IMG/VR virus record: IMGVR_UViG_3300044700_000691
Coordinates: 1 to 64,000 of that record
DNA from: a virus
DNA: 64,000 bases
Reading direction: 5' to 3' (one strand)
Part shown: in pieces, positions 4,664 through 61,237 of the stretch
How positions within the stretch are numbered: position 1 is the stretch's first letter
How the letters are laid out: each line of letters opens with the position of its first letter
Notes under the pieces: model-generated
What the model was told of the DNA's origin: nothing
The model's database searches: none
The model's input: the letters and a program-made list of their open reading frames with translations, nothing else
Program-made: the position numbers and the translations under genes

Positions 4664-4975
4664 CTATCGATTCGACTGCCGGGTTTCGCCTGTGCGACGA
4701 TTATATGCAAACTTTTCTCTTAGGCCAAGGTCTTCGTAAAGTAATATACCATTATTAAAAGAGAGAGGTTCTTGATTGGGTAATCCTAATCTATACATAC
4801 CTCTATTCTCGCCGGTTGCAGTAAAGAAATTAACCTCGCCTGTTTGAGACATGCAGCAGACCTCTTCTGAATCCCAACCTATAAGTTCATAGTTACCTAA
4901 TACAAACTGGGTTCGGGTCCCGTTGTCGTGCACCACGCTTGCAATACTACCCTGTTCTTCGACATAACTTATCAT
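4664..4975 (-). CDS. small beta-rich protein, unknown
   Basis: 103 residues, not recognised. Predicted mostly beta (S-I-A-S-V-V-H-D-N-G-T-R-T-Q-F-V-L-G), with a C-C pair near residue 40 and a C-terminal N-R-R-T-G-E-T-R. Overlaps the upstream gene by four bases (ATGA), so it is translationally coupled in the sigma operon. Confidence 0.7.
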   Translation of the reverse strand: MISYVEEQGSIASVVHDNGTRTQFVLGNYELIGWDSEEVCCMSQTGEVNFFTATGENRGMYRLGLPNQEPLSFNNGILLYEDLGLREKFAYNRRTGETRQSNR

Positions 4976-11961: not shown

Positions 11962-12612
11962 ATGAAACATATCAGACTATACAAAGATTTTATTACCGAA
12001 GAGGTCCAGTCTGGTGTTGTGCACTGCAGTGGTAAAAGCTGTAACTGGAGTTGGAATCTAGCGGATGGCTTGGATGGCGGCGAAACCAATCCCTATCTAT
12101 GTCACAAGTGCTGGCATGACAATACCCCTGCTATTACCGAATCTGCGGATCCTTTCTGGACCCAATATGTTAGACTTGTTGATCTAGGTATGATTGATCT
12201 AGAGGATTGGAGCAAGATTAAAGATGATGTAGTATTGCTAGTTAAGGAGCGGTTAGCCAGTCACTACCCTAATTTAGATGTAGAAAAACTGGCATTTGAC
12301 GAAATCAGGATCCACCAGCAGGGTAAAGGCGGGCGCGATCCTTATTATAGTGTCTATATTGATAAGGGCGTTAACTATAGTTATAAGGTATGGAATTGCA
12401 GATTGGTAATTCGTTTTCAAAAGGCAGCCGGTCGACTTGATAGTAGTCAGCTTATTACGGTACCTGACTATTTCTGGGAAAGACCAATTGGTGGGTATCA
12501 ATGGATACCAAGCACGGTTGCACAGAGTAGGTGGATAGCAGACGAAATTATCAAGTGGATGGACAAGGTCTTTGTACCATTTATCGGTGTTGAAATAGAA
12601 GAAACCAACTAA
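11962..12612 (+). CDS. capsid-targeted zinc-ribbon protein
   Basis: 216 residues. N-terminus M-K-H-I-R-L-Y-K-D-F-I-T-E/E (cleavage predicted after I-T-E). Residues about 20-52 form a zinc-ribbon-like unit: H-C-S-G-K-S-C-N-W-S-W then C-H-K-C-W-H-D-N. A short L-V-D-L-G-M-I-D-L-E-D-W hairpin follows (SHOCT-like). The C-terminal half has no recognised domain. Probably carried inside the head; activity unknown. Confidence 0.75.
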   Translation: MKHIRLYKDFITEEVQSGVVHCSGKSCNWSWNLADGLDGGETNPYLCHKCWHDNTPAITESADPFWTQYVRLVDLGMIDLEDWSKIKDDVVLLVKERLASHYPNLDVEKLAFDEIRIHQQGKGGRDPYYSVYIDKGVNYSYKVWNCRLVIRFQKAAGRLDSSQLITVPDYFWERPIGGYQWIPSTVAQSRWIADEIIKWMDKVFVPFIGVEIEETN

Positions 12613-36317: not shown

Positions 36318-36545
36318 TTACCACTTAGGTTCTTCCAATGGACAGGCCTCGCCTTTAGTTGCAGTCTTTGCAAAAATATAGCAGCCGCACTCACCGCACT
36401 GACCACTTGCTCCTAGAAATTTGTCGCACTCATAACAAATAGAGAGCCTTTCATTTCTAATATCGTCGCCAACAAATAAATCATCAAAGATTCCTTTGAT
36501 TTTTGTTCGTACCTCGGTTGAGTTACAGTTCTTGCAATCGCTCAT
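36318..36545 (-). CDS. zinc-ribbon protein, DUF6171-like
   Basis: 75 residues from the ATG reading M-S-D-C-K-N-C. Two zinc units: C-K-N-C near the start with C-Y-E-C, and C-G-E-C-G-C-Y-I-F near 55, then C-P-L-E-E-P-K-W at the end. The C-P-x-x-x-W ending is typical of DUF6171-like phage proteins. It overlaps the UVDE gene by 23 bases. Confidence 0.7.
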   Translation of the reverse strand: MSDCKNCNSTEVRTKIKGIFDDLFVGDDIRNERLSICYECDKFLGASGQCGECGCYIFAKTATKGEACPLEEPKW

Positions 36546-37482
36546 GATCAAGTTGAATATAATTTTCTAATAAAGTATTATACTGCTCACGATATTTTAG
36601 AACAGCTAAGTCTTTGGCTTTTGCCTCGACCTCAATATCTAGAGTTAGGCCATATGGATTAATTTTTTCATAGATATAATCAGCATGGGATCTGGCAATA
36701 ACTGAAGAATCCTCGAATGTTTTCCTTGAACTTGAGTAGTGAGTTAGCGGCGTACATGACCAAGTTGAAGCTGCAAGTTTTAGTGCAGCCTCTTCAGTTA
36801 AGCCACTAGTATTAAATCGGTGATGGTGAAAATCAAAGGTGATTGGTGTACCAATTCTTGCAGTAATTAAGTCAAACAAGTCTTGTACTGAGTATTGAGT
36901 AGCCTTATCATCATTTTCAACCACAAGCCGGCTTTGCGCAGCTTTACTGAGTAACCTAAAATTTTGGCAAAATCTATCAGCTGCGGATTCTTTATCTCCA
37001 TATGTTCCACCTACATGGATATTAATAGGAAATCTATGATCGGTTGGTAAACCCATAAGATCCATAATTTCAGCGTGTTGGTTTAGATCCTTGATTGTTT
37101 TAGTAACAACACTTGGCGTTGGTGATGGTAAAACATCAAACTGACCTGGGTGCATTGATAACCTGATATTATTTGCAAGTACAAATTTGCCAATGGCCTG
37201 CATATCTGGTAAAATTTCTTGGAAATTAGGAAGCTCTTGAATTTCATATTCTGACATCCATGGAAAAACATCGCTAGACATACGATAAACGTAAATGCCA
37301 TTTGCAAGATTCCATTCCAAAATAGTTAAGATATCTTTGATATTTTGATGAGCCAACTCGCTGCAATATTGCACGCCCTTTTGTTGAAAGGTTTTTTTAA
37401 TCATTCCACGATTTGCAGTAACCTTTCTATCTAGTGACAAGTTAATGCAGCAATAGCCAAGGCGAGTTGTTTCGTTTATCAT
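36523..37482 (-). CDS. uvsE: UV damage endonuclease (UVDE/UvsE)
   Basis: 319 residues, full length. Family blocks in order: L-G-Y-C-C-I-N; Y-R-M-S-S-D-V-F-P-W; S-M-H-P-G-Q-F; I-N-I-H-V-G-G; V-V-E-N-D-D; F-D-F-H-H-H; D-I-E-V-E-A-K-A-K. TIM barrel with a three-metal site; nicks 5' of UV photoproducts and other lesions. Preceded by a GTATATTA box. Suggests life in a sunlit habitat. Confidence 0.95.
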   Translation of the reverse strand: MINETTRLGYCCINLSLDRKVTANRGMIKKTFQQKGVQYCSELAHQNIKDILTILEWNLANGIYVYRMSSDVFPWMSEYEIQELPNFQEILPDMQAIGKFVLANNIRLSMHPGQFDVLPSPTPSVVTKTIKDLNQHAEIMDLMGLPTDHRFPINIHVGGTYGDKESAADRFCQNFRLLSKAAQSRLVVENDDKATQYSVQDLFDLITARIGTPITFDFHHHRFNTSGLTEEAALKLAASTWSCTPLTHYSSSRKTFEDSSVIARSHADYIYEKINPYGLTLDIEVEAKAKDLAVLKYREQYNTLLENYIQLDHERLQEL

Positions 37483-37494
37483 AAAACTAATATA

Positions 37495-37713
37495 CTAAAT
37501 ACTATTCATTTTTGTGAGCTCTTCACACTTTTCAAATTCTTCCTTTTCTTCAAAATAGTCAATCATTTCAACTAAAAGGTCTGCTTTTTCTTTTTCATCA
37601 AATGGAATATCAGTTGGCCATGTAAAAGAATTTGCACTTAGGTGTTTGTACATTTCTTCCATCATGTCAAGGTACATGCTTTCTAAAGCTGCACTATAAT
37701 CAATAGTTCGCAT
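37495..37713 (-). CDS. small protein with E-E-F-E-K-C motif
   Basis: 72 residues, acidic. D-Y-F-E-E-K-E-E-F-E-K-C-E-E-L near the end is a helical hairpin shared with genes at 26176 and 59006. Overlaps the exonuclease gene by 14 bases. Confidence 0.6.
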   Translation of the reverse strand: MRTIDYSAALESMYLDMMEEMYKHLSANSFTWPTDIPFDEKEKADLLVEMIDYFEEKEEFEKCEELTKMNSI

Positions 37714-38323
37714 TCTGATAATTATTTGTGGCTTTACGGATTACCTCAACAACATCAATTGCATCATCTAATCCATCGTGCGTAACATGATTTTCAAGAC
37801 CAATGCGTTCTTTGCATTTTCCAAGACCAGGCAAAGCTTGATCGTTTTTCCAATCTGTAACCAATACAGCTGGATCAATAATACGATTTCTAATTTTAAT
37901 CTTAGTATTCCAAGTTGGAATTAGCGTCTCTAACCAAACTTTATCAAATGCTGCAAAGTTTTTACCCGCTGCATTAATAATTACTCTGTCACCATCTACT
38001 TCACAACCATTAAATGCTGCCCAATTTGCAAACGCAGTAGCAACCATTTGTGGAGTTAAGATATTGTGTTTTTTGCGATAATCTCCGCGCTCTTCTCTTG
38101 GAATCTTTTCCATGCCAGCAATTATCTTAATAAGGTTCATGTTCATATTAAAAGCATATGCTGAACCGCTATAGTGTGGATGTTCAATTACACAATTGAA
38201 AGTAGGCAACTCTGAGATTGGCTTAACATCATTTGTATCTTCAATTATTGCGCCAATCTGTAAGACCTGACAAGTCTGTGGATCTAATCCAGTTGTTTCT
38301 AAATCAATTGATATGTATTTCAT
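37700..38323 (-). CDS. 3'-5' exonuclease, DnaQ-like (DEDDh)
   Basis: 207 residues. I-D-L-E-T-T-G-L-D (Exo I, D-x-E) at the start; N-A-A-G-K-N-F-A-A-F-D (Exo II) in the middle; H-D-G-L-D-D-A-I-D (Exo III, H-x4-D) near the end. A standalone proofreading-type exonuclease, on DNA or RNA. GTATAATA box upstream. Confidence 0.88.
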   Translation of the reverse strand: MKYISIDLETTGLDPQTCQVLQIGAIIEDTNDVKPISELPTFNCVIEHPHYSGSAYAFNMNMNLIKIIAGMEKIPREERGDYRKKHNILTPQMVATAFANWAAFNGCEVDGDRVIINAAGKNFAAFDKVWLETLIPTWNTKIKIRNRIIDPAVLVTDWKNDQALPGLGKCKERIGLENHVTHDGLDDAIDVVEVIRKATNNYQNANY

Positions 38324-38341
38324 TTCTTTATATTTTATACT

Positions 38342-38350
38342 ATTATACTA
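38342..38350 (-). promoter_or_regulatory. probable middle promoter box
   Basis: Minus strand TTAGTATAATAGTATAAAATA, about 20 bases from the exonuclease ATG at 38323. Confidence 0.45.
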
Positions 38351-38758
38351 ATCTAAGATATCCCATGGCAAATCTCCGTCTTCAATCGGCGTAGATTTCT
38401 TTGGTGTATTCGGAGATGCTCCAAATAAGTCATTCATGATTTCATCGTCAGTCATGTCTTGCTCATCTAAAATTTGATTAGATTTTGCAATATGAATTTG
38501 AGTTGCTTCAATTGTATTGAAGTATTTGATTTGGCCGCTAGGACTTTCCCATTTACGACCGGCTAATTTATAGCCAACCTGAATTTGATCTCCAGGCTTT
38601 GCTGGATCCAGCATTTCGCATTTTTCTTGGATTGCAACAAAGGTTACATACTGTGGGTACTTATCGTTAGTCCCGACTACAAATTCTCTTTTTTTGAATT
38701 TGGCTGATACAAATTGAGTATCGTCTACGTTAATTAAGGTTCCGCTAAATGTTGACAT
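38348..38758 (-). CDS. SSB-like OB-fold protein (DUF3127-like)
   Basis: 136 residues. F-K-K-R-E-F-V-V ... K-Y-P-Q-Y-V-T-F and G-Y-K-L-A-G-R-K-W match the DUF3127 pattern of Bacteroidetes OB-fold proteins. The tail is acidic and ends G-D-L-P-W-D-I-L-D, like the D-x-P-F tail with which SSB recruits partners. Probably the phage ssDNA-binding protein, in a run of repair and replication genes. Confidence 0.8.
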   Translation of the reverse strand: MSTFSGTLINVDDTQFVSAKFKKREFVVGTNDKYPQYVTFVAIQEKCEMLDPAKPGDQIQVGYKLAGRKWESPSGQIKYFNTIEATQIHIAKSNQILDEQDMTDDEIMNDLFGASPNTPKKSTPIEDGDLPWDILD

Positions 38759-38759
38759 A

Positions 38760-39236
38760 TTAAAAGTTTGGGTTTGTTATTTTTAAATCATAATTATTAA
38801 AGTTTGCAAATAATTCTTTATCTGCTTGTAGTCGAGCATCGACTGTGTGACCTGGCATAACTCTTTCAGTAAGGCGTTGTCTGCGTGGATCTTCTGCGAT
38901 ATCAAAAAATATTACAAATGATTTTGCACGATCCTCTGGCGAAAGATGTGATAGACCACTCGGCGTCATAATAAAAACATCATCACGATAAAACTGTTCG
39001 ATCGTGGTGCCGTACGTCCAACCATTAAAATCAATTACTTCATAAAATTTACCGGAGTCAATCATTTGCTGACACTCAGTTTGACTTAAAAAGAAGTAAT
39101 CCTGGCCGTCTACTTCACCCGGTCTTGGTGGACGTGTTGTATAACTTACAGCATAAGTCATGCCTCTTTCCTCAAGGCGTTTTCTCATATAATCTTTACC
39201 TGATGCGCCAGGTCCCGCTAAAATAATTCTTGGCAT
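38760..39236 (-). CDS. guanylate-kinase-like nucleotide kinase
   Basis: 158 residues. P-loop G-P-G-A-S-G-K-D (8-15); Y-T-T-R-P-P-R-P-G-E-V-D-G-x-D-Y is the guanylate kinase substrate block; a shortened C-terminal half compared with about 190-200 residues in cellular enzymes. Makes GDP/dGDP from (d)GMP with ATP. Its ATG overlaps the ligase stop. Confidence 0.88.
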   Translation of the reverse strand: MPRIILAGPGASGKDYMRKRLEERGMTYAVSYTTRPPRPGEVDGQDYFFLSQTECQQMIDSGKFYEVIDFNGWTYGTTIEQFYRDDVFIMTPSGLSHLSPEDRAKSFVIFFDIAEDPRRQRLTERVMPGHTVDARLQADKELFANFNNYDLKITNPNF

Positions 39237-40531
39237 TATATTGTTCTTGTTTTTTCGTAAATTGCTTTAATAACTGGAAATCTTAAAGAGTGCTGACCAT
39301 GTTGGTCGGTTGTTTCTTCAAAATATTGAACTGTAATTGTTTTACCAATAATTTGACTAGGGTTTTTGTAAAATTGTCGACGCTGTTCAATTGAAAAACC
39401 TGAACCTACTCTAACTTGATTTCCTCTATGCGTAATAAAAATATTACCTAGCATTTCTTCTTCGACTTCGCGACCATCTTCAATAACTCTATGAGTTGAA
39501 TTTTCAACTCCTTCTACAATGTATTCAGCATCCCAGAATTTTTTAACTTTAAGAATTTCATCACTGCGTTTTCCAATATATGGGGTATCTTTTCTTAACA
39601 TTAAGCCTTCCCAACCTTGAGCAGTTGAATTAGTAATTTCAGTTTGCAGGTGCTCCTCTGACTCTATTAGTGTCTGCTTTAGTAGAGTAGTATTTTTTAA
39701 GTCAATTCCACTAAACAGTAGAGCCGCAATTGTAATACGATCCCTAAATTTTCTGTCACTAGTTGAAGTTTGGCTATTAAACTCTTCTAGGGTTAAACAG
39801 TCAAATACTAAATATTTTGGATTTTTTATGGTATGGTTTTTTCGGCCAATTTCTTTAATAATTCCTTGAAAATCTTCTTGACCTGCATCATTCATCATGC
39901 AAACCTCGCCGTCAAGCACAGTATCTACTAAATTTAATTTTTTAATATCTGCCTTTAAGGTAGCTAGAGTTAGGAACTCATTACCACCTCTAGAAAAGAA
40001 CTTAACTTCTCCATCTGCATCAATTATTGCAGCACAGCGAACTCCATCTAATTTACGGCTCATGTACCAGTGATCTTCTAGCCTAACTTTCTTTTTAGTC
40101 CTATCATCATATGGCATGGCTAGTGCAACGTCAAAGGTTGGAATTGTTCCAGGTAAGATTGAATTAATTAAGGTCGTAGTTGCTCTAGTTTTTAGGTTGC
40201 GATCTAAGATACTATAGATCACTTCTGAGAACTCCAAATTCTTAGCTATAAAACCATTAACACAAGCTATTGCAGAGTTGCCAGTGACACGACGTTCATT
40301 CAGGTCGTTTAACAGACTAAATAGATCATCATAATTATCAAAAGAGAGCTCCTGTCTCTTTTTTAAGTTGGCCGGCGTAACATAATACTGCTTGAATGGA
40401 GAGTATGTATACTCTAGGATCTTTCTAAGATATGGGCTATTGAATTGTTGCAGGACTGCCTTTTTATCGTTGGTCGACGAAGTTACATTCATTGCCTCAA
40501 TAAAGTCCTGTATTGATTTGAGATTGTTCAT
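39236..40531 (-). CDS. ATP-dependent DNA ligase
   Basis: About 431 residues from M-N-N-L-K; a TTG-initiated extension of five codons is less likely. Motif I S-R-K-L-D-G-V-R (K160 adenylated), L-D-G-E-V (motif III), E-G-L-M-L-R-K (IV), L-K-V-K-K (V), then an OB domain. Joins nicks in replication and repair. Follows a terminator and a GTATAATA box. Confidence 0.93.
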   Translation of the reverse strand: MNNLKSIQDFIEAMNVTSSTNDKKAVLQQFNSPYLRKILEYTYSPFKQYYVTPANLKKRQELSFDNYDDLFSLLNDLNERRVTGNSAIACVNGFIAKNLEFSEVIYSILDRNLKTRATTTLINSILPGTIPTFDVALAMPYDDRTKKKVRLEDHWYMSRKLDGVRCAAIIDADGEVKFFSRGGNEFLTLATLKADIKKLNLVDTVLDGEVCMMNDAGQEDFQGIIKEIGRKNHTIKNPKYLVFDCLTLEEFNSQTSTSDRKFRDRITIAALLFSGIDLKNTTLLKQTLIESEEHLQTEITNSTAQGWEGLMLRKDTPYIGKRSDEILKVKKFWDAEYIVEGVENSTHRVIEDGREVEEEMLGNIFITHRGNQVRVGSGFSIEQRRQFYKNPSQIIGKTITVQYFEETTDQHGQHSLRFPVIKAIYEKTRTI

Positions 40532-40536
40532 ATACA

Positions 40537-40544
40537 TATTATAC
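40537..40544 (-). promoter_or_regulatory. probable middle promoter box
   Basis: Minus strand TTTGTATAATATG, directly after the terminator at 40548 and just before the ligase ATG. Confidence 0.4.
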
Positions 40545-40547
40545 AAA

Positions 40548-40572
40548 AAAGGAGACCAAATAGGTCTCCTTT
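40548..40572 (-). terminator. intrinsic terminator
   Basis: Minus strand AAAGGAGACC-tattt-GGTCTCCTTT then TTT, between the 171-residue gene and ligase. Confidence 0.88.
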
Positions 40573-40596
40573 AGCTATATAAAAGACGCCAATTAA

Positions 40597-41112
40597 TTAG
40601 GCGGGAGTTTCCTCAGTTTGCGGAGCCTCTACTGGAGTTTCCAAAGTCTTAATTGCCTTGTCTAACTCATGTACTTTAGAGTATGCAGTGTTTAATTGGA
40701 AAGAAACTTTGAATAGAGCCTGTGCATTGTGTAAACCTGTGAATTTTGCACGGTTTAGGAAATACAGACAAGATTCAATACATGCGGCCGGCAATCTAAC
40801 CGAGCTAACCTCAGAGTTTTTACCTTCGCCTTTATGGTTTTCAATTTCTCCCAATAACATATTGTGATTTTGTAGAATAACGAAAGCTTCGTTAGGTCCA
40901 GTAAATTCAACACTATTTTTTAGGAAATTTCTTAACCACTTAAGATCTTCTTGCGTCATTGATGGAACATCAAAATGACCACGTCTTTGTGCTTTAAGTT
41001 TTTCAATTTCGGATAATTCTGGTTGAGGCTCTTCCACCTCTGGAGTTGCATCAGTAATTTGATCAACCTGTTCTAAAATTTGCTCGTCTTGAGTTACAGT
41101 TTCGTTTGACAT
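40597..41112 (-). CDS. acidic-tailed helical protein, unknown
   Basis: 171 residues from M-S-N-E-T-V; a longer frame overlaps the Nudix gene and the promoter box and is rejected. Acidic, Gln/Pro/Glu-rich N- and C-terminal tails around a helical core (about 55-155). The core shows no known motif. Likely soluble; may bind DNA-replication partners, unproven. Confidence 0.65.
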   Translation of the reverse strand: MSNETVTQDEQILEQVDQITDATPEVEEPQPELSEIEKLKAQRRGHFDVPSMTQEDLKWLRNFLKNSVEFTGPNEAFVILQNHNMLLGEIENHKGEGKNSEVSSVRLPAACIESCLYFLNRAKFTGLHNAQALFKVSFQLNTAYSKVHELDKAIKTLETPVEAPQTEETPA

Positions 41113-41135
41113 AAATATCTTTGTTTTTGTTAAGA

Positions 41136-41143
41136 TATTATAC
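41136..41143 (-). promoter_or_regulatory. probable middle promoter box
   Basis: Minus strand TTGGTATAATATCTTAAC, about 25 bases from the ATG at 41112. Confidence 0.45.
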
Positions 41144-41149
41144 CAAACT

Positions 41150-41632
41150 CTATTCGATAGTTTCAATCAATCGTTGAGCAATTATCTGCTGAGAACGCGA
41201 TAATTTAGTAATTGCCTCTTGTATTGGGATAAATCCAGCCCAATCTACCTCCTCGGCCTGTAGTTGTTCTTTAGGTACCTTCGGCGAAGCAAGGCCAATT
41301 TGTTCAAGGCTCTCAATGCGTACGTCAAAATAAGCGCAGCGACTGTGAGGAATACCGCGACGGTAAAATACAAAATATTTCTCATGTTTATCAATTAGTT
41401 CTGGATCTACCGTAATCCCGGTCTCTTCCCTTGTCTCACGAATTGCGCAAGTTAAAAGATCTTCACCATCTTCGATTCCACCTTTAGGAATGCCAAATGG
41501 TTGGTTCTTCCAACTTGCATCAGAAGGATGAATTAATAAAAGTTTTCCTTCCCAGATAATAGCCAAGCCGGCTGCTCGAATTTCAAGCTGCTTTTCGCTC
41601 TCTGCTAAATAATCTGTGAATGTAAAAATCAT
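41150..41632 (-). CDS. capsid-targeted Nudix hydrolase
   Basis: 160 residues. M-I-F-T-F-T-D-Y-L-A-E/S targeting motif, then a Nudix fold with a perfect box (residues 51-73: G-x5-E-x7-R-E-T-R-E-E-T-G-I). Nudix enzymes split nucleoside diphosphates linked to another group (dNTPs, NAD, Ap4A, capped RNA). T4 NudE hydrolyses Ap4A, but a Nudix protein with a capsid leader is new to me. Overlaps the bS21 gene by four bases. Confidence 0.88.
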   Translation of the reverse strand: MIFTFTDYLAESEKQLEIRAAGLAIIWEGKLLLIHPSDASWKNQPFGIPKGGIEDGEDLLTCAIRETREETGITVDPELIDKHEKYFVFYRRGIPHSRCAYFDVRIESLEQIGLASPKVPKEQLQAEEVDWAGFIPIQEAITKLSRSQQIIAQRLIETIE

Positions 41633-41823
41633 TTATTGTCTGCATCGTTCTTTTTTTGAATGTACTTTGCTTTATTAATTTCAGATCTTCTTTTAACACT
41701 AGGTTTTACAAATTCTTTACGATCACGTAAATTTTGTAACTGTTTAGTGTCAATGACCTTTCTTTTTAATTGTTTGAGTGCTCTTTCCAAAGACTCTGAA
41801 TTTCTTATATCAATTATTAACAT
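41629..41823 (-). CDS. rpsU: ribosomal protein bS21 homologue
   Basis: 64 residues. M-L-I-I-D-I-R-N-S-E-S-L-E-R-A-L-K-Q-L-K-R-K and R-D-R-K-E-F-V-K-P-S-V-K-R-R follow the bS21 pattern (basic helices, [R/K]-x-x-[F/Y]-x-K-P-[S/T]). It resembles the flavobacterial form. bS21 sits at the platform near the anti-Shine-Dalgarno; in Flavobacteriia it helps hide that sequence. A phage copy could exchange into host ribosomes and bias initiation. No Shine-Dalgarno is visible upstream. Between a cargo gene and Nudix, in the same operon. Confidence 0.88.
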   Translation of the reverse strand: MLIIDIRNSESLERALKQLKRKVIDTKQLQNLRDRKEFVKPSVKRRSEINKAKYIQKKNDADNK

Positions 41824-41826
41824 AAA

Positions 41827-42432
41827 TTAAAAATCAGTGTCAATTGACTTTGAAACTGGCCCAGTTGAAAAGTTAAGCGTCCATGAAAAGGTGTCTGAGT
41901 CGTTAGCTCCTTCAAAAGTATCGAAAAGACTATCATCAGCTCTGCCAGTCATCCATCCAGAAACTTCAGTTAAATTTAAATTCATTTTCTTTGAAAGAGA
42001 TACCATTGTAGCATCACTTGCATATTTACCATTTGCTGCAACATCCTTGGTTAATTGTGCAAGAGTCGTAGTAAGATCATCCAATGTAGGTTTGCAGTCC
42101 AATTCCCATTGCTGTTCTAGTGCGGCCCAAGCCGTTTTTTCATTATCGTTCCACGTGCTTTTGAATTTATTCCAAAATGGATTTGCTTCAACAAACATAG
42201 CGATTAACCAATCTTGTAGTTTCTTAAAACCTGCGTCTAGCTTAGCGGTTAAAGCCTCTTTTTCTTTGGCAATAGCCTCTGCAGTAGGACCTGCTGGCGT
42301 ATTATTTGCGGGCTCTGCCTTTTTTGAAGCCACGGTACTGCTTTTTTGACCAGATGAGCTTGCGGAAGAAGCTTGTCCAAATCTTCCTGTTTGTTCGACT
42401 AAAAAGTCTGAAAATCTTTTAATATTTTTCAT
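41827..42432 (-). CDS. capsid-targeted protein, unknown
   Basis: 201 residues. M-K-N-I-K-R-F-S-D-F-L-V-E/Q targeting motif, a Ser/Ala/Lys-rich linker (about 18-50), then helices and a Ser/Thr-rich end. TAAATAAT box upstream. First gene of the operon with bS21 and Nudix. Confidence 0.75.
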   Translation of the reverse strand: MKNIKRFSDFLVEQTGRFGQASSASSSGQKSSTVASKKAEPANNTPAGPTAEAIAKEKEALTAKLDAGFKKLQDWLIAMFVEANPFWNKFKSTWNDNEKTAWAALEQQWELDCKPTLDDLTTTLAQLTKDVAANGKYASDATMVSLSKKMNLNLTEVSGWMTGRADDSLFDTFEGANDSDTFSWTLNFSTGPVSKSIDTDF

Positions 42433-42448
42433 TTTTTAATTTATTTTA

Positions 42449-42456
42449 ATTATTTA
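42449..42456 (-). promoter_or_regulatory. late promoter box
   Basis: Minus strand TTAAATAAATAATTAAAAT, 24 bases from the ATG at 42432, in the gap before the 466-residue gene. Confidence 0.65.
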
Positions 42457-43854
42457 TTTAATTGGAGAGGCTGTTATGGCAGATTTAATAATTGTAAGCA
42501 AACCATCATCAAATTTTCCAGCAGCTGTTCCCTTTACTACAGATTCAAAATCTTTAAATCCTTTTGATTCACTATACGTTTGACCGTGTTTAAATCCTGA
42601 GAATTTTTTAATAGCGGCAAACATATTTTCATACGACCCTGCACTATTTTTATTCATATTGGTTTTAAAGTAAGTTTTAACTTTATCTATTGTAGAAACA
42701 TCTGGGGTTCCCCAAGTTGTCTTGTCAGATACAACTACTCCTGCAAAAATCTTTAACACTTGATCTTCAGTTGTTATATTAGTTCCATCAAATCCAGCAG
42801 TGGCGGCTGCTGAGGCTGTAGCAGCAGTTGGATCAACAATTGCGCCGGCTGCTAAATCCGAGATTATGAATGGAGCATAATATTCCGCACTTTCTGGATC
42901 TTTCATAAATTCTAGTGAATTTAACTTAATTTTTCCAGCGTTTAATCCTAATACCACTACGGCATGCGCCATTTTAGAGTAAAGATCTTGTGTTAATTCA
43001 TTAACGTTGACTTTAGAAAAATTTGACTGGTCGAATTTGGCAGCTTTGGCAAACAGATTTATTAAAGCGGCCTGAAGTGGTTCCGAATAAATTAGGTTCT
43101 GCCCAGCAGCGCCTGGCTCAGCTTTAGCCATTCCATCTGGTAGTTTAGAAATAAATTTCCAAAATATTGGAACAATATCACCGCTTGTTGTAACTGCAAC
43201 CCGTGCCTTTCCAATCTTCTTAGTGACTTTCTTTATGTAAGTTGAGTACAGACCAATATCATTATAATACCATTTGTATGCTGGACCGTCTCCATCTAAG
43301 AATGACGCTGCCGTAAATACAGTCGCAGGTTTTGTATCAGCTGCGATTTTCTTATCGTCGGCCGGCTTACCTGTGCCTGGCTCCTTAAAATACTTTTGAA
43401 ATGAACCATCTGCACCCATTAAATAAGTCATTCTGTTATCAATACCAGAGGCTATTTTTTGATTTGCTGGAATAGCTTGAGTATTAATTGTATCAGGATA
43501 AAAAAGATAGATCCATCCTGTAAATTCTCCTAGATCTTTTCCAATTATTCTATTTTTTTGAGTTGATACATTAGCTCTAATAATACCTACTTCATGCGTT
43601 GGGTCAGATCCTTTAATTGCAGTTAGGACCTGCTGAGCATCACCGTCCTTAGCATTATTAATTGTATTAATTAACTCCTTAACATCTCCCAATAATGGAT
43701 TTTTAGCTGGCCAGCTAAATTGGTATTGCCATTTTATTCTAATGCTACCTTCGCCAGCTGGTAAAGTGATAGGCTGCGCAAGCAGCTTAAACTTAGTTTC
43801 AGTTTCAGTAGCAGTTTGCTCAAATAGAGCAGTTATGTTTTTTATGGTTTTCAT
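42454..43854 (-). CDS. large capsid-targeted protein, unknown
   Basis: 466 residues. M-K-T-I-K-N-I-T-A-L-F-E/Q targeting motif (L-F-E). Mixed fold with Ala/Lys-rich parts; no catalytic motif recognised. Four bases after the 855-residue gene and cotranscribed with it. Confidence 0.72.
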   Translation of the reverse strand: MKTIKNITALFEQTATETETKFKLLAQPITLPAGEGSIRIKWQYQFSWPAKNPLLGDVKELINTINNAKDGDAQQVLTAIKGSDPTHEVGIIRANVSTQKNRIIGKDLGEFTGWIYLFYPDTINTQAIPANQKIASGIDNRMTYLMGADGSFQKYFKEPGTGKPADDKKIAADTKPATVFTAASFLDGDGPAYKWYYNDIGLYSTYIKKVTKKIGKARVAVTTSGDIVPIFWKFISKLPDGMAKAEPGAAGQNLIYSEPLQAALINLFAKAAKFDQSNFSKVNVNELTQDLYSKMAHAVVVLGLNAGKIKLNSLEFMKDPESAEYYAPFIISDLAAGAIVDPTAATASAAATAGFDGTNITTEDQVLKIFAGVVVSDKTTWGTPDVSTIDKVKTYFKTNMNKNSAGSYENMFAAIKKFSGFKHGQTYSESKGFKDFESVVKGTAAGKFDDGLLTIIKSAITASPIK

Positions 43855-43858
43855 TATA

Positions 43859-46426
43859 TTAAAACATTTTAAGTAAGTCGCTAGCAGTCACCGAACCTCC
43901 AAAGAAATTTGGTCTATACGATGGATCGGCATCCAGTTTTTCAAATTCAGATTTGATTAATTGTGCTTCTCCAGGAGATGGATAAAAACTAATTGAGCCA
44001 GTTGTTGCTACATTGCCGGCTGTACGTTTATAATTATTTTCATACTCTTTAAGGGCACTCTTAAGTTTAGATTTAATTGATTCATATTCCATGTCCTGTG
44101 TCATTACCGCAGCTAACATATACCATAGTCCGCCGTGTTGCCAGTCGGTTCCGACTCTTTCTGAAATTACTTCTTGAATAGTGGCATCGGCTGGTAATTC
44201 GGTCATCATACCTGCATCTGAAATTGGAGAAGATATTCCCATTTGTTTTAGGGTAGCATCGACTGCTTCTTGATTAGCAATAGTAGCTTCACTACTAACT
44301 CCAGCTGCAACAAAATCTTGTTTTGGGCCGTTTTTAACTAGTGCACTATCCTTAGATGGAACGGTTGCGGCTAGCGCAAGTTCGTCTATTGCTTTATTTA
44401 CGTGACTTTGACAAATATCAACATAGCTAAGAGGACCTACTATTGCATTACCTCTTTTTGCTTTTTCTAATTCTTGTGATATTTCATCTGCTGCCGTAGT
44501 AGGTGTAGCATCTTCTGCCTCTAACAAAAACTGAGATCGACTTAGGATAAATTTAGTAGATTCCTTTTTTAAACCTAACGTACCCAATGCCTCAATACCT
44601 CCCATATCGCCTTGACCTAACTCTGCAATTGGACATCTAAGCGGAGCACCAATTACGTTTTTAGCAATAATTAGTTTATTTCGCATAACTCTACTTTTTC
44701 TAAGAGCTTGTGACCAGGTTCCTCCAACTTTTGCTAAATCGTCAAACCTTTTAATTGCACTAGATCCAGCTTTTGCAATATCAGCATATACCTCTGGATT
44801 TTTTGCAAAAAGTCTATACATTCCAACTACACCTGGGCCAGCTTCTTCTAATTTGGCTAGCGCCGCGGGGTTAGACAAAATTCCATTAAAAAATTTACTT
44901 AATTTGGCTGGATCATCTGAAATCTCTGCAACCAATCTAGCACTAAAGTTTGCACCTTTTTTAGTTGATATTTCAGCTGCATTGCCAGTTAATCTAATTA
45001 AATCATCGGCTGGTAAATCGCTAATACGTTTCATTCCAGCAAATAGCGCCTCAGCTTTACGACCCTCCATCCAAGCAGATTTAAGCTTTTCAATTTGGCT
45101 AAGGTCGCTTGCTGTAAGAGGAACACCGTCAACTTTTTTAATTTCTTTCCATACAGAAATATATTCATCCCAACCTTTTTCTAAGAATTTGTCTAGATCC
45201 TTTCCTCCTGTTTTAAGAAGATCATCACTAATTTTAAGATTTGAATTTATAACGTCAATTAGTCTGCCGCCTTTAACAAAGCGCCCTGCTCCAGGTAATC
45301 CCTTTTCAATACGAGTTTGAAGAATTCCTTCAATACGTTTAACTTCTGCCATATTACCTGCGGCTTTTGCTGCAGTTAATTCAGACATTTTAGTTACTAC
45401 TCCAGCATCATTAACTACATCTGCTCCGATCTTAGTAACAATATCACTTCCAGTATCTGCTACTTTACTGGCATCTCCACTCTTGATTGCAGCTGTAATA
45501 TCATCTGAACCCTTAGTTGTAAGAGCTGCCATATCATCAATTGCAGAATCTAGATTTTTGGTAATTGGCGTAACTGCCGTGTCTAGCCATTTTCCAAGCT
45601 TTTTACCAAGCCCGCCGAATAACATACTTACTGGCCATGATCTCAATAGTGCTTCAATGCCTCGACCTACTCCTTTTGCAAGGTTTATAAAAAATGTAAT
45701 AACTGGCTTTGCTCCAGAAAATATCTGTAAGAATTTAGCAAGTGTTGTAGGATCTTCTTTGGCAAGAGCCTTAACAATGCCTGCGTCAGCTTTACCTGTT
45801 TTAAATGCAACTTCAGCTAAATTGTTTATTTTCTTAAAGCCTTTTGCTAATTTTAATGCTTTGGCTGCATCACCAATTCCCGGTAGAGCTGCTGCAATTA
45901 CACTAATTAATGCTGATCCGTATTGACCTTCTAGTAAGTAAATTACCGCGTTTAGTCCATCTGCAACAATATCAATAGGAAAGCCAAAATATGAAGCTGG
46001 AATAAATCCAATAATATCTAATAATAAGTGTACGATACCTAGCGGCGAACCATTTTCGGTTAGGGCGTTCCAAATTGATCTAAGAGTATCAAAAAAGTCC
46101 TCGTTAACTGAATAGTAATGTTCAATTACTGAATCAAGGTTAAAATTAGATTCTGTAAATAGGGTAACACCAGTCGTTCCCATTGCATATAAAATATGCT
46201 CTAATTTAGAATTTTCAGAAAATCCAGACTGGCTAAGAGCAGCATCGTATCTTTGCGAATTTTCAATAAATTCATCTGATACTGATTCAGGCAAGACTGG
46301 TTTAATTGTGTCCAGCATTTGCATTAGGTCTGGACCAACTTCATTTAAGAAGTCAAATAGTGGATTAGAGTTATCAGATTCGTTAATTACAAATTGATCT
46401 CTACTTAAAATATATTTTGATGCCAT
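43859..46426 (-). CDS. 855-residue capsid-targeted protein with polymorphic-toxin-like region and second internal targeting motif
   Basis: N-terminus M-A-S-K-Y-I-L-S-R-D-Q-F-V-I-N-E/S; a near copy, T-K-F-I-L-S-R-S-Q-F-L-L-E/A, lies at about 622-636. Residues 130-195 (L-L-L-D-I-I-G-F-I-P ... V-I-Y-L-L-E-G-Q-Y-G-S-A-L ... A-L-P-G-I-G-D-A-A-K) follow the hydrophobic pretoxin linker pattern of polymorphic toxins. Ala/Lys-rich helices follow (about 195-600). Cleavage at both motifs would yield two products of about 620 and 220 residues. Late box 29 bases upstream. Possibly a membrane-active ejected protein. Confidence 0.75.
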   Translation of the reverse strand: MASKYILSRDQFVINESDNSNPLFDFLNEVGPDLMQMLDTIKPVLPESVSDEFIENSQRYDAALSQSGFSENSKLEHILYAMGTTGVTLFTESNFNLDSVIEHYYSVNEDFFDTLRSIWNALTENGSPLGIVHLLLDIIGFIPASYFGFPIDIVADGLNAVIYLLEGQYGSALISVIAAALPGIGDAAKALKLAKGFKKINNLAEVAFKTGKADAGIVKALAKEDPTTLAKFLQIFSGAKPVITFFINLAKGVGRGIEALLRSWPVSMLFGGLGKKLGKWLDTAVTPITKNLDSAIDDMAALTTKGSDDITAAIKSGDASKVADTGSDIVTKIGADVVNDAGVVTKMSELTAAKAAGNMAEVKRIEGILQTRIEKGLPGAGRFVKGGRLIDVINSNLKISDDLLKTGGKDLDKFLEKGWDEYISVWKEIKKVDGVPLTASDLSQIEKLKSAWMEGRKAEALFAGMKRISDLPADDLIRLTGNAAEISTKKGANFSARLVAEISDDPAKLSKFFNGILSNPAALAKLEEAGPGVVGMYRLFAKNPEVYADIAKAGSSAIKRFDDLAKVGGTWSQALRKSRVMRNKLIIAKNVIGAPLRCPIAELGQGDMGGIEALGTLGLKKESTKFILSRSQFLLEAEDATPTTAADEISQELEKAKRGNAIVGPLSYVDICQSHVNKAIDELALAATVPSKDSALVKNGPKQDFVAAGVSSEATIANQEAVDATLKQMGISSPISDAGMMTELPADATIQEVISERVGTDWQHGGLWYMLAAVMTQDMEYESIKSKLKSALKEYENNYKRTAGNVATTGSISFYPSPGEAQLIKSEFEKLDADPSYRPNFFGGSVTASDLLKMF

Positions 46427-59278: not shown

Positions 59279-61237
59279 CTAGTTTTTTTGATCTCCATAA
59301 AATCCAGACAAAGTCTGCTTATATGAATCTAAGTAATTTGCATCGAACACTTGTCTTTGTCCTGGTTTTTTCATTTGTGGCGTATCGTTTAGATAACCTA
59401 CTAAATCTGATGTAATCTTGGATGAGCCGTCTCCCTGAATTGAATTTAAAATTGTTTCAGTTACGGCCTTTTTATATTCTTCACTAGTTCTATCCCAAAC
59501 CTCTGTACCTAACTCTAAAAAGCTTGGAGAGTCAAAAAACGCCGCCGAGTTGACGCAAGTCATTGCTAAGTCGTCATTACCGCTTTGGCTTCGGTATGTA
59601 CCATTGGTTGATCTACCAAATGAACCAAGTTCCATTACGGTTTTACTTTCGTTTGGCAAAATCTTATTTACGTTAACATGATACTTAAATCTTTCGCAGA
59701 ATTTAATTTTATTAGTAACACTTAATTTAAGACCTGGTTTAAGTAGTTTAGTTGCTTCAGTATGTTTAGAGTGGATTAACTGGCCCGGCCAATACTGTTC
59801 GTTGCTTGAGATCTTATCCAAAATAAAGTCCCCCTTGTGGTTTAATTCTATTAGGACTTTAATATTTTCAAAATTAAATAGTCTGTAAACTAAATATTCT
59901 AATACTTGAGCATATTCATTAATTGTTTGTCGATTACTTCTCCAAGTTGCAACCTGTACAAGAGAAATACAGTCTAATTCAGATTTAATTAGATTTTTAA
60001 TTGGCTCTAGCGTTTTTATTGGAAGGGCTACTGCTTTAAAAATATTAATAACTGAAAAGTCTTTGCCTGTTCCATCTGCAGTATCGACTGAAAATACATA
60101 TTGATCTGGAGAATTTCTAAAGTCCTGTTCGTCCCAATCCTTTAGGTTAGGGTGAACTGTAAAATTACCTTCCATTAAGGCAAGTACTTCTGGATCCCAA
60201 TTGATTTTAAGAGGTTCTTCGTATTTGGTTGCAATACTAAATATTTTCTTAAGATCCTTTGACGATAATAGTAATCTATCTGAAGAAAAGAATTGCAATC
60301 CATATTCCTGGTTAAAATCTTCTTCTGATCCCATGTTTGCAATAGTTTCAGCTTTCCATTTATCATCTCTGCCTGGAACTTGCCACCAGTCAACTCTAAG
60401 TGGAGCATAGGTATTTAGTCCATTTAGTGCATCCATATAGATTTCATAGAATCTGTTCATTCCATTTGGAGTTGATGTAATAATAATCTTGGATGTAGTT
60501 GATGCAGAAATAGTAGGGTAAATTGCTCGATAAAAGAAATCTAGGTAAGCTGGCGAAATATGCGCAAACTCATCAATGTATAGTAGGTGAATGGTAAAAC
60601 CAATACCTGTATTTTTAGTGGTGGTACGTCCAATTAATCTACAGCCATTATCGAACTTCATCGACATAACGTTATTTGAAATACAGCCGGGTTTTAGGAA
60701 AAATGGCAGATTTTCAAAAATAGATTTGATTTTATCAACAACCTCTTTGGTGGTTGACGCAATATTGGCAACAGCTAATACGTTTTTATCAGTATGGAAA
60801 ATAAGATACCATGCAACAAACACGCCAGACATTACAGTTTTACCAATTTGGCGGCTTGCCATTAAGATATTAAATCGACTTGCGCCAAATCCTCTAATAA
60901 TTTCCTCTTGGTAATCACGTAAGATAATTTGTTCAACACCATATTCAGTTAAAACCTGAGCATACTTATTTGCAAAGTAGACAACGTCAGATTTACACTT
61001 TTTTATCTCTTCGAGTTCTTCTGGAGAATATTCAAATACTAAGTTTGGTTTTTTCCAAGCGGGATCATTGTCTTTAAATGGCGAGTTTTTGATAGTTTTA
61101 ATATCAATTAAACCATTTTCAAAATCAGCTAGTAACTGATCAATCTTTTTAGTAGTCCAAACTGAACTATTTTCAGTGTCATCTAGTTTAGATAGTTGTA
61201 CGCTGGTTCGACCGCCCGATGCTATAAAGTCTTTCAT
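59279..61237 (-). CDS. terL: terminase large subunit, T4 gp17-like
   Basis: 652 residues. Walker A A-S-R-Q-I-G-K-T (127-134), Walker B L-L-Y-I-D-E-F (D222/E223), a C-motif T-S-T-P-N (255-259), then the nuclease: F-S-V-D-T-A-D-G (D385), L-I-E-L-N, and G-N-D-D-L-A-M. ATP-driven DNA packaging motor and headful nuclease. Preceded by a terminase-small-like gene two bases upstream. Confidence 0.95.
   Translation of the reverse strand: MKDFIASGGRTSVQLSKLDDTENSSVWTTKKIDQLLADFENGLIDIKTIKNSPFKDNDPAWKKPNLVFEYSPEELEEIKKCKSDVVYFANKYAQVLTEYGVEQIILRDYQEEIIRGFGASRFNILMASRQIGKTVMSGVFVAWYLIFHTDKNVLAVANIASTTKEVVDKIKSIFENLPFFLKPGCISNNVMSMKFDNGCRLIGRTTTKNTGIGFTIHLLYIDEFAHISPAYLDFFYRAIYPTISASTTSKIIITSTPNGMNRFYEIYMDALNGLNTYAPLRVDWWQVPGRDDKWKAETIANMGSEEDFNQEYGLQFFSSDRLLLSSKDLKKIFSIATKYEEPLKINWDPEVLALMEGNFTVHPNLKDWDEQDFRNSPDQYVFSVDTADGTGKDFSVINIFKAVALPIKTLEPIKNLIKSELDCISLVQVATWRSNRQTINEYAQVLEYLVYRLFNFENIKVLIELNHKGDFILDKISSNEQYWPGQLIHSKHTEATKLLKPGLKLSVTNKIKFCERFKYHVNVNKILPNESKTVMELGSFGRSTNGTYRSQSGNDDLAMTCVNSAAFFDSPSFLELGTEVWDRTSEEYKKAVTETILNSIQGDGSSKITSDLVGYLNDTPQMKKPGQRQVFDANYLDSYKQTLSGFYGDQKN

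Follow-up and report, generated by a model that had tools for sequence, protein, structure and literature searches.

No other ribosomal protein is found in phages as often as bS21. The closest described systems are the Bacteroidetes phages of Chen et al. 2022 (clades a to e), for which a bS21 with an aromatic residue 54 hiding the anti-Shine-Dalgarno (anti-SD) was reported and substitution in the ribosome was proposed (PMC9723584). In those clades, which are other than the one described here, phage bS21 diverged at positions 21, 23, 25, and 28, with the aromatic residue 54 conserved (PMC9723584). The bS21 of the Pelagibacter phage HTVC008M was shown to enter Escherichia coli ribosomes (Mizuno et al. 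2019, PMC6375957). On the host side, rpsU of Flavobacterium johnsoniae has an extended Shine-Dalgarno (SD), and bS21-lacking ribosomes mediate its autoregulation, a control that McNutt et al. suggested to be a host counter-defense (PMC9976891). The C-terminal portion of F. johnsoniae bS21 contacts the 16S 3' tail (PMC9976891), with Tyr54 stacking on A1534 (residue contacts after PMC9976891 and PMC9723584), and truncation of the bS21 C-terminus makes ribosomes poor at initiation on mRNAs without an SD and improves their initiation on rpsU (PMC9976891).

The locus described here lies in a window (the whole stretch of DNA analyzed, 64,000 nucleotides) that is part of a 216.8-kb (216,815-bp) phage record encoding a single bS21 (Table 1). 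With the phages of Chen et al., it shares a Bacteroidia-type bS21, the aromatic residue 54, a probable Bacteroidota host, and a large myovirus-type genome; with HTVC008M, it shares a phage-encoded bS21 in a large myovirus, but the host of the latter is alphaproteobacterial. An earlier note, made from the DNA letters, had recognized a 64-residue bS21 homologue, and this was confirmed by matches to Pfam Ribosomal_S21 (PF01165; E 2.3e-12, 46.9 bits, the cut-off being 27), in an alignment of residues 4 to 54 with positions 2 to 52 of the 55 in the model, i.e., the full domain, to the PHROG family "ribosomal protein S21" (E 9e-6), and to the F. johnsoniae ribosome bS21 (7JIL), its best PDB match (E 1.5e-12). 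Homologues with 81 to 100% identity were present in 16 other viral contigs and, together with the shared downstream gene order and pairwise dN/dS values of ca. 0.05 to 0.14 within the phage bS21 clade, they indicate that the ORF is not due to chance; judged by these ratios, the clade is under purifying selection. Among bacterial genomes, no near copy was confirmed (144 pattern hits, 0 confirmed).

Table 1. Coordinates of the bS21 gene, its parts, and its neighbors (window positions)
Feature	Position	Strand	Basis or remark
bS21 leader, AATTGACACTGATTTTTAATTT, without SD, -0.7 kcal/mol to anti-SD	41824..41845	-	Anti-SD pairing energy
Phage bS21 (rpsU-like) gene, ATG start, 64 aa, product MLIIDIRNSESLERALKQLKRKVIDTKQLQNLRDRKEFVKPSVKRRSEINKAKYIQKKNDADNK	41629..41823	-	PF01165, 7JIL match, dN/dS
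Codons 40-56, KPSVKRRSEINKAKYIQ, conserved C-terminal half	41656..41706	-	Alignment; contacts 16S 3' tail in F. johnsoniae
Codon 54 (TAC, Tyr), equivalent of F. johnsoniae Tyr54	41662..41664	-	Alignment
Cargo-like gene directly upstream of bS21, N-terminus MKNIKRFSDFLVE/Q, T4-CTS-like	41827..42432	-	ORF and leader pattern
NUDIX hydrolase gene, N-terminus MIFTFTDYLAE/S, CTS-like	41150..41632	-	Pfam NUDIX, E 7.9e-15
Downstream block: unknown gene, DNA ligase, guanylate kinase-like, SSB, exonuclease subunit, endonuclease	36523..41166	-	Order fixed in clade
Upstream genes 42454-43854 and 43859-46426, CTS-like N-termini	42454..46426	-	Diverging or replaced in relatives

The best annotated or host-named matches of the terminase (TerL, 59279-61237) and the major capsid protein (MCP, L006:10677-12266) were phage PAU, which is filed under Sphingomonas, the Prevotella Lak phages, Flavobacterium phage MaF61, and Tenacibaculum PTm1/PTm5; both proteins also matched unannotated huge-phage records. 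A Bacteroidota host is well, if indirectly, supported, and no CRISPR match was found. Leaders of Bacteroidia are known to be SD-poor and A-rich at set positions (PMC9976891). The genes of the phage had fewer SDs than a mock region taken farther from the start and were enriched in A at -3, -6, -12, and -13; because they are SD-poor with A-rich leaders, and given the Bacteroidota-phage relatives of TerL and MCP, the view that the host does not rely on Shine-Dalgarno initiation holds. The strongest SD leader in this otherwise SD-poor phage (AAAAGGAGGAAAACT, -12.2 kcal/mol) precedes gene 4664-4975 (-), which codes for a 103-aa uncharacterized protein. Neither an Rfam match nor a tRNA was found in the window, six tRNAs being located in the record outside it. 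Genes for bS18, bS6, and HPF were not found in the phage, and without them a phage supplying the whole anti-SD pocket was ruled out.

The phage protein and F. johnsoniae bS21 have the same length, MLII N-terminus, KPSV..R..I.KA.YIQ motif, and Tyr54, and differ at the N-terminal residues 18, 23, 24, and 28. In the alignment, columns 40 to 56, including Tyr54, were nearly unchanged between the phage and the Y54-type host sets. Residue 54 was aromatic in all 78 distinct phage bS21s among the matches listed, a figure that is biased upwards because the sequences were collected for their similarity to the window bS21. Having both Tyr54 and a conserved C-terminal half, the protein is, on alignment grounds, of the Bacteroidia (anti-SD-hiding) type. 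The eight columns diverging most between phage and Y54-type host (8, 10, 18, 21, 23, 24, 28, and 37, in a ranking that left out the ragged C-terminus) all lie N-terminal to 40, and the phage-specific residues there are V for host F23, I for D/E24, Q for T/V/I28, and Q/T for R/K18.

The earlier note had further supposed that phage bS21 could replace that of the host and retune start selection in favor of A-rich phage leaders, and had suggested an alignment at the residues contacting the 16S 3' end as a check. This part of the protein turned out to be conserved with respect to the host rather than altered. The A content of the phage leaders was 0.498 over positions -20 to -1 (0.57 at -3 and 0.56 at -12), and two Flavobacteriales-type bacterial samples gave 0.488 and 0.457 (0.63 and 0.53 at -3; 0.58 and 0.57 at -12), so that A-richness offers no handle for discrimination. 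In SD poverty, too, phage and host genes were on a par. With leaders indistinguishable in composition from those of Flavobacteriales and the anti-SD-contacting half conserved, retuning in the form stated was rejected. The lack of an SD ahead of the phage gene is more informative. The replacement of host bS21 seems plausible, since a Bacteroidia-type bS21 (Tyr54, conserved C-terminal half) is found in a phage of SD-less Bacteroidota. A specialized ribosome might still arise if the altered N-terminal helix of phage bS21 conferred a preference for phage mRNAs that depended on neither their A-richness nor an SD but on some other trait. The phage-specific residues at 18, 23, 24, and 28 are consistent, and the N-terminal half of bS21 is near the mRNA path (PMC9723584), but the leaders of phage and host do not differ in composition, those of the phage showed nothing that would set them apart, and the N-terminal divergence may only reflect long separate evolution, which leads us to consider this explanation unlikely.

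SD strength was expressed as the pairing energy with a 13-nt anti-SD, and leaders were divided at -9 kcal/mol. At -0.7 kcal/mol, the window gene does not have the extended SD (stronger than -13 kcal/mol) of autoregulated Bacteroidota rpsU, and it differs in this from the F. johnsoniae gene. Of the 78 distinct phage bS21 genes among the matches listed, 75 were weaker than -9 kcal/mol; clustering at 70% identity left 30, of which 27 were so, in a set of viral leaders that is query-biased, having been collected by similarity to the window bS21. All Flavobacterium-type rpsU leaders (80/80) ranged from -18.4 to -21.6 kcal/mol, and in a wider sample of the phylum 14 of 21 Y54-type bS21 genes were at or below -9 kcal/mol, some bacterial ones having no SD. 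A rank test of phage versus host SD strength gave a p value of 2e-21, which ignores relatedness. An SD recognized by an alternative anti-SD (UCUCA) was rejected, with TGAGA in only 1 of 78 leaders.

The SD-bearing phage bS21s comprised three sequence types (L042, L094, and L117), at ca. -10 to -12 kcal/mol. Their loci are L042 (the 735-kb phage) and L093 (a contig whose bS21 is the same), L094, and L117/L120/L123, and they are possible cases of retained anti-SD control. The 735-kb phage LR756501 and its relatives have, like the window, a Y54-type phage bS21 (53% identical), but with an SD (AAAGGAGG, -12.1 kcal/mol). In the tree, 55 phage bS21s formed one supported group (98/87), which suggests that the SD may have been lost once or a few times and not 75 times independently. 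Furthermore, being SD-less is the default for genes of Bacteroidota phages, and the missing SD need not be selected; the observation that phage bS21 genes lack an SD stands, with no claim of selection. This default is also in keeping with a simple matter of dosage, in which an exchangeable, late-assembly bS21 would run short during infection and the missing SD would have no regulatory meaning. The conserved bS21 under purifying selection and the tendency of viruses to encode exchangeable ribosomal proteins (PMC6375957) fit such a supply, and no observation speaks against it. It amounts to our main model in weaker form, with escape from feedback as a side effect, and we judge it quite unlikely.

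A second bS21 gene is present in two Bacteroidota chromosomes (L241/L242 in genome G121 and L243/L244 in G106; also L299). The SD of these second copies is weaker or absent (-9.8 and -1.5 kcal/mol, versus -17.6 for the main copy), and they group near the phage bS21s (fork 92/97). The one in G121 adjoins a sigma-factor gene, with no evident prophage.

The gene context sets this phage apart from those of Chen et al., in which bS21 is on the strand opposite to the terminase, capsid, and protease genes within a TerL/portal/protease/capsid block. Here, bS21 (at 41.6 kb) is co-directional with its surroundings, between a cargo-like gene and an ATGA-overlapping NUDIX, and far from the prohead protease; the head-maturation-protease (L006:12284-14314) and capsid genes are at ca. 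154 to 158 kb of the record, and TerL, at 59.3 to 61.2 kb, is on the same strand as bS21. bS21 is part of a single block of genes on this strand. The cargo-like gene stops 3 nt before the bS21 ATG and the NUDIX ATG overlaps the bS21 stop, a junction kept in all relatives checked, while the order NUDIX, ligase, guanylate kinase-like, SSB, and exonuclease was constant downstream of bS21 in the relatives examined. No DNA-level relatives of this downstream block were found among deposited phages. In most relatives, the upstream neighbor has a different body with a similar leader and ends 1 to 12 nt before bS21; as regards the leader, L024, a contig with only a partial upstream region, is the exception. 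In five contigs (L031, L035, L036, L050, and L087), a third context was observed, between a homologue of L006:14385-15239 and PhoH; bS21 therefore occupies several unrelated places in related phages.

In T4, the capsid-targeting sequence (CTS) is cut by the prohead protease. The direct upstream neighbor of bS21, in the window as in nearly every relative examined, is a cargo-like gene with a leader resembling this sequence, which in this sense bears out the proximity to cargo genes described in the earlier note; the pattern alone represents a modest excess (16 of 215 ORFs, versus 3.2% of internal segments, or ca. 7 expected). The N-terminus of the NUDIX hydrolase is identical in all relatives checked and, being CTS-like, suggests that this enzyme is possibly packaged and injected. 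Other candidate packaged proteins, with K-F-x-x-F-[LI]-x-E-like N-termini, start at window positions 11962, 18379, 19223, 21463, and 22754 (+) and at L006:10089, L007:9574, L008:16585, and L009:895. No CTS-like leader was found on bS21 itself, and its role as a packaged cargo protein was rejected. A function outside the ribosome, whether in regulation through RNA binding or as a protein of the virion or one that is injected, for which the location among cargo-like genes and the possibility of packaging raised previously (PMC9723584) could be invoked, appears highly improbable, given that bS21 is devoid of the leader of its neighbors and that its ribosome-contacting half is conserved.

The model that we favor, with some reserve, is that of a ribosome-entering, anti-SD-hiding phage bS21 made outside host control. 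The gene would provide a functional bS21 of the Bacteroidia type that most likely enters host 30S subunits, where the conserved C-terminal half and Tyr54 would keep the 16S 3' tail hidden and the ribosomes efficient on the SD-less, A-rich mRNAs common to host and phage. Host supply would be held by feedback, because rpsU is best translated, via its extended SD, by bS21-lacking ribosomes. Phage bS21, with no SD and with stop/start couplings to both neighbors, would be made by ordinary ribosomes along with the cargo-like gene and NUDIX, and the lack of an SD in the phage copies would separate their supply from the autoregulatory loop. As ribosomes fill with phage bS21, the SD-dependent host rpsU would be turned down and the anti-SD kept hidden late in infection; the divergent N-terminal half may contribute an added preference. 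Since loss of the bS21 C-terminus costs SD-less initiation and raises rpsU, an SD-independent bS21 would favor phage translation and depress rpsU. The late transcription of bS21 in other Bacteroidetes phages (PMC9723584) speaks for the model. Against it count the near inactivity in vitro of ribosomes with phage bS21, in the foreign host E. coli (PMC6375957), the three SD-bearing phage types, and the SD-less bacterial Y54-type genes. A complete takeover, in which the SD-free bS21 fills the 30S subunits, hides the anti-SD, and shuts off host rpsU until ribosomes depend on phage bS21, is conceivable but somewhat doubtful.

It is already published that Bacteroidota phages carry bS21 and that its residue 54 is aromatic, as is the idea of substitution (PMC9723584, PMC6375957). 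What is new is the gene context, a cargo-like operon with a NUDIX overlap, and the comparison of SDs between phage and host bS21; no mention of the SD of phage bS21 genes was found in the literature searched, outside which most subscription journals fall, and it is absent from the main text of PMC9723584. Phage copies without the strong host SD signal may allow the protein to be made free of host control. In Bacteroidia, host bS21 is under a known and unusual anti-SD feedback, and with the anti-SD-hiding residues kept and the control signal absent, the idea of a ribosome hijack becomes a definite prediction, testable in F. johnsoniae.
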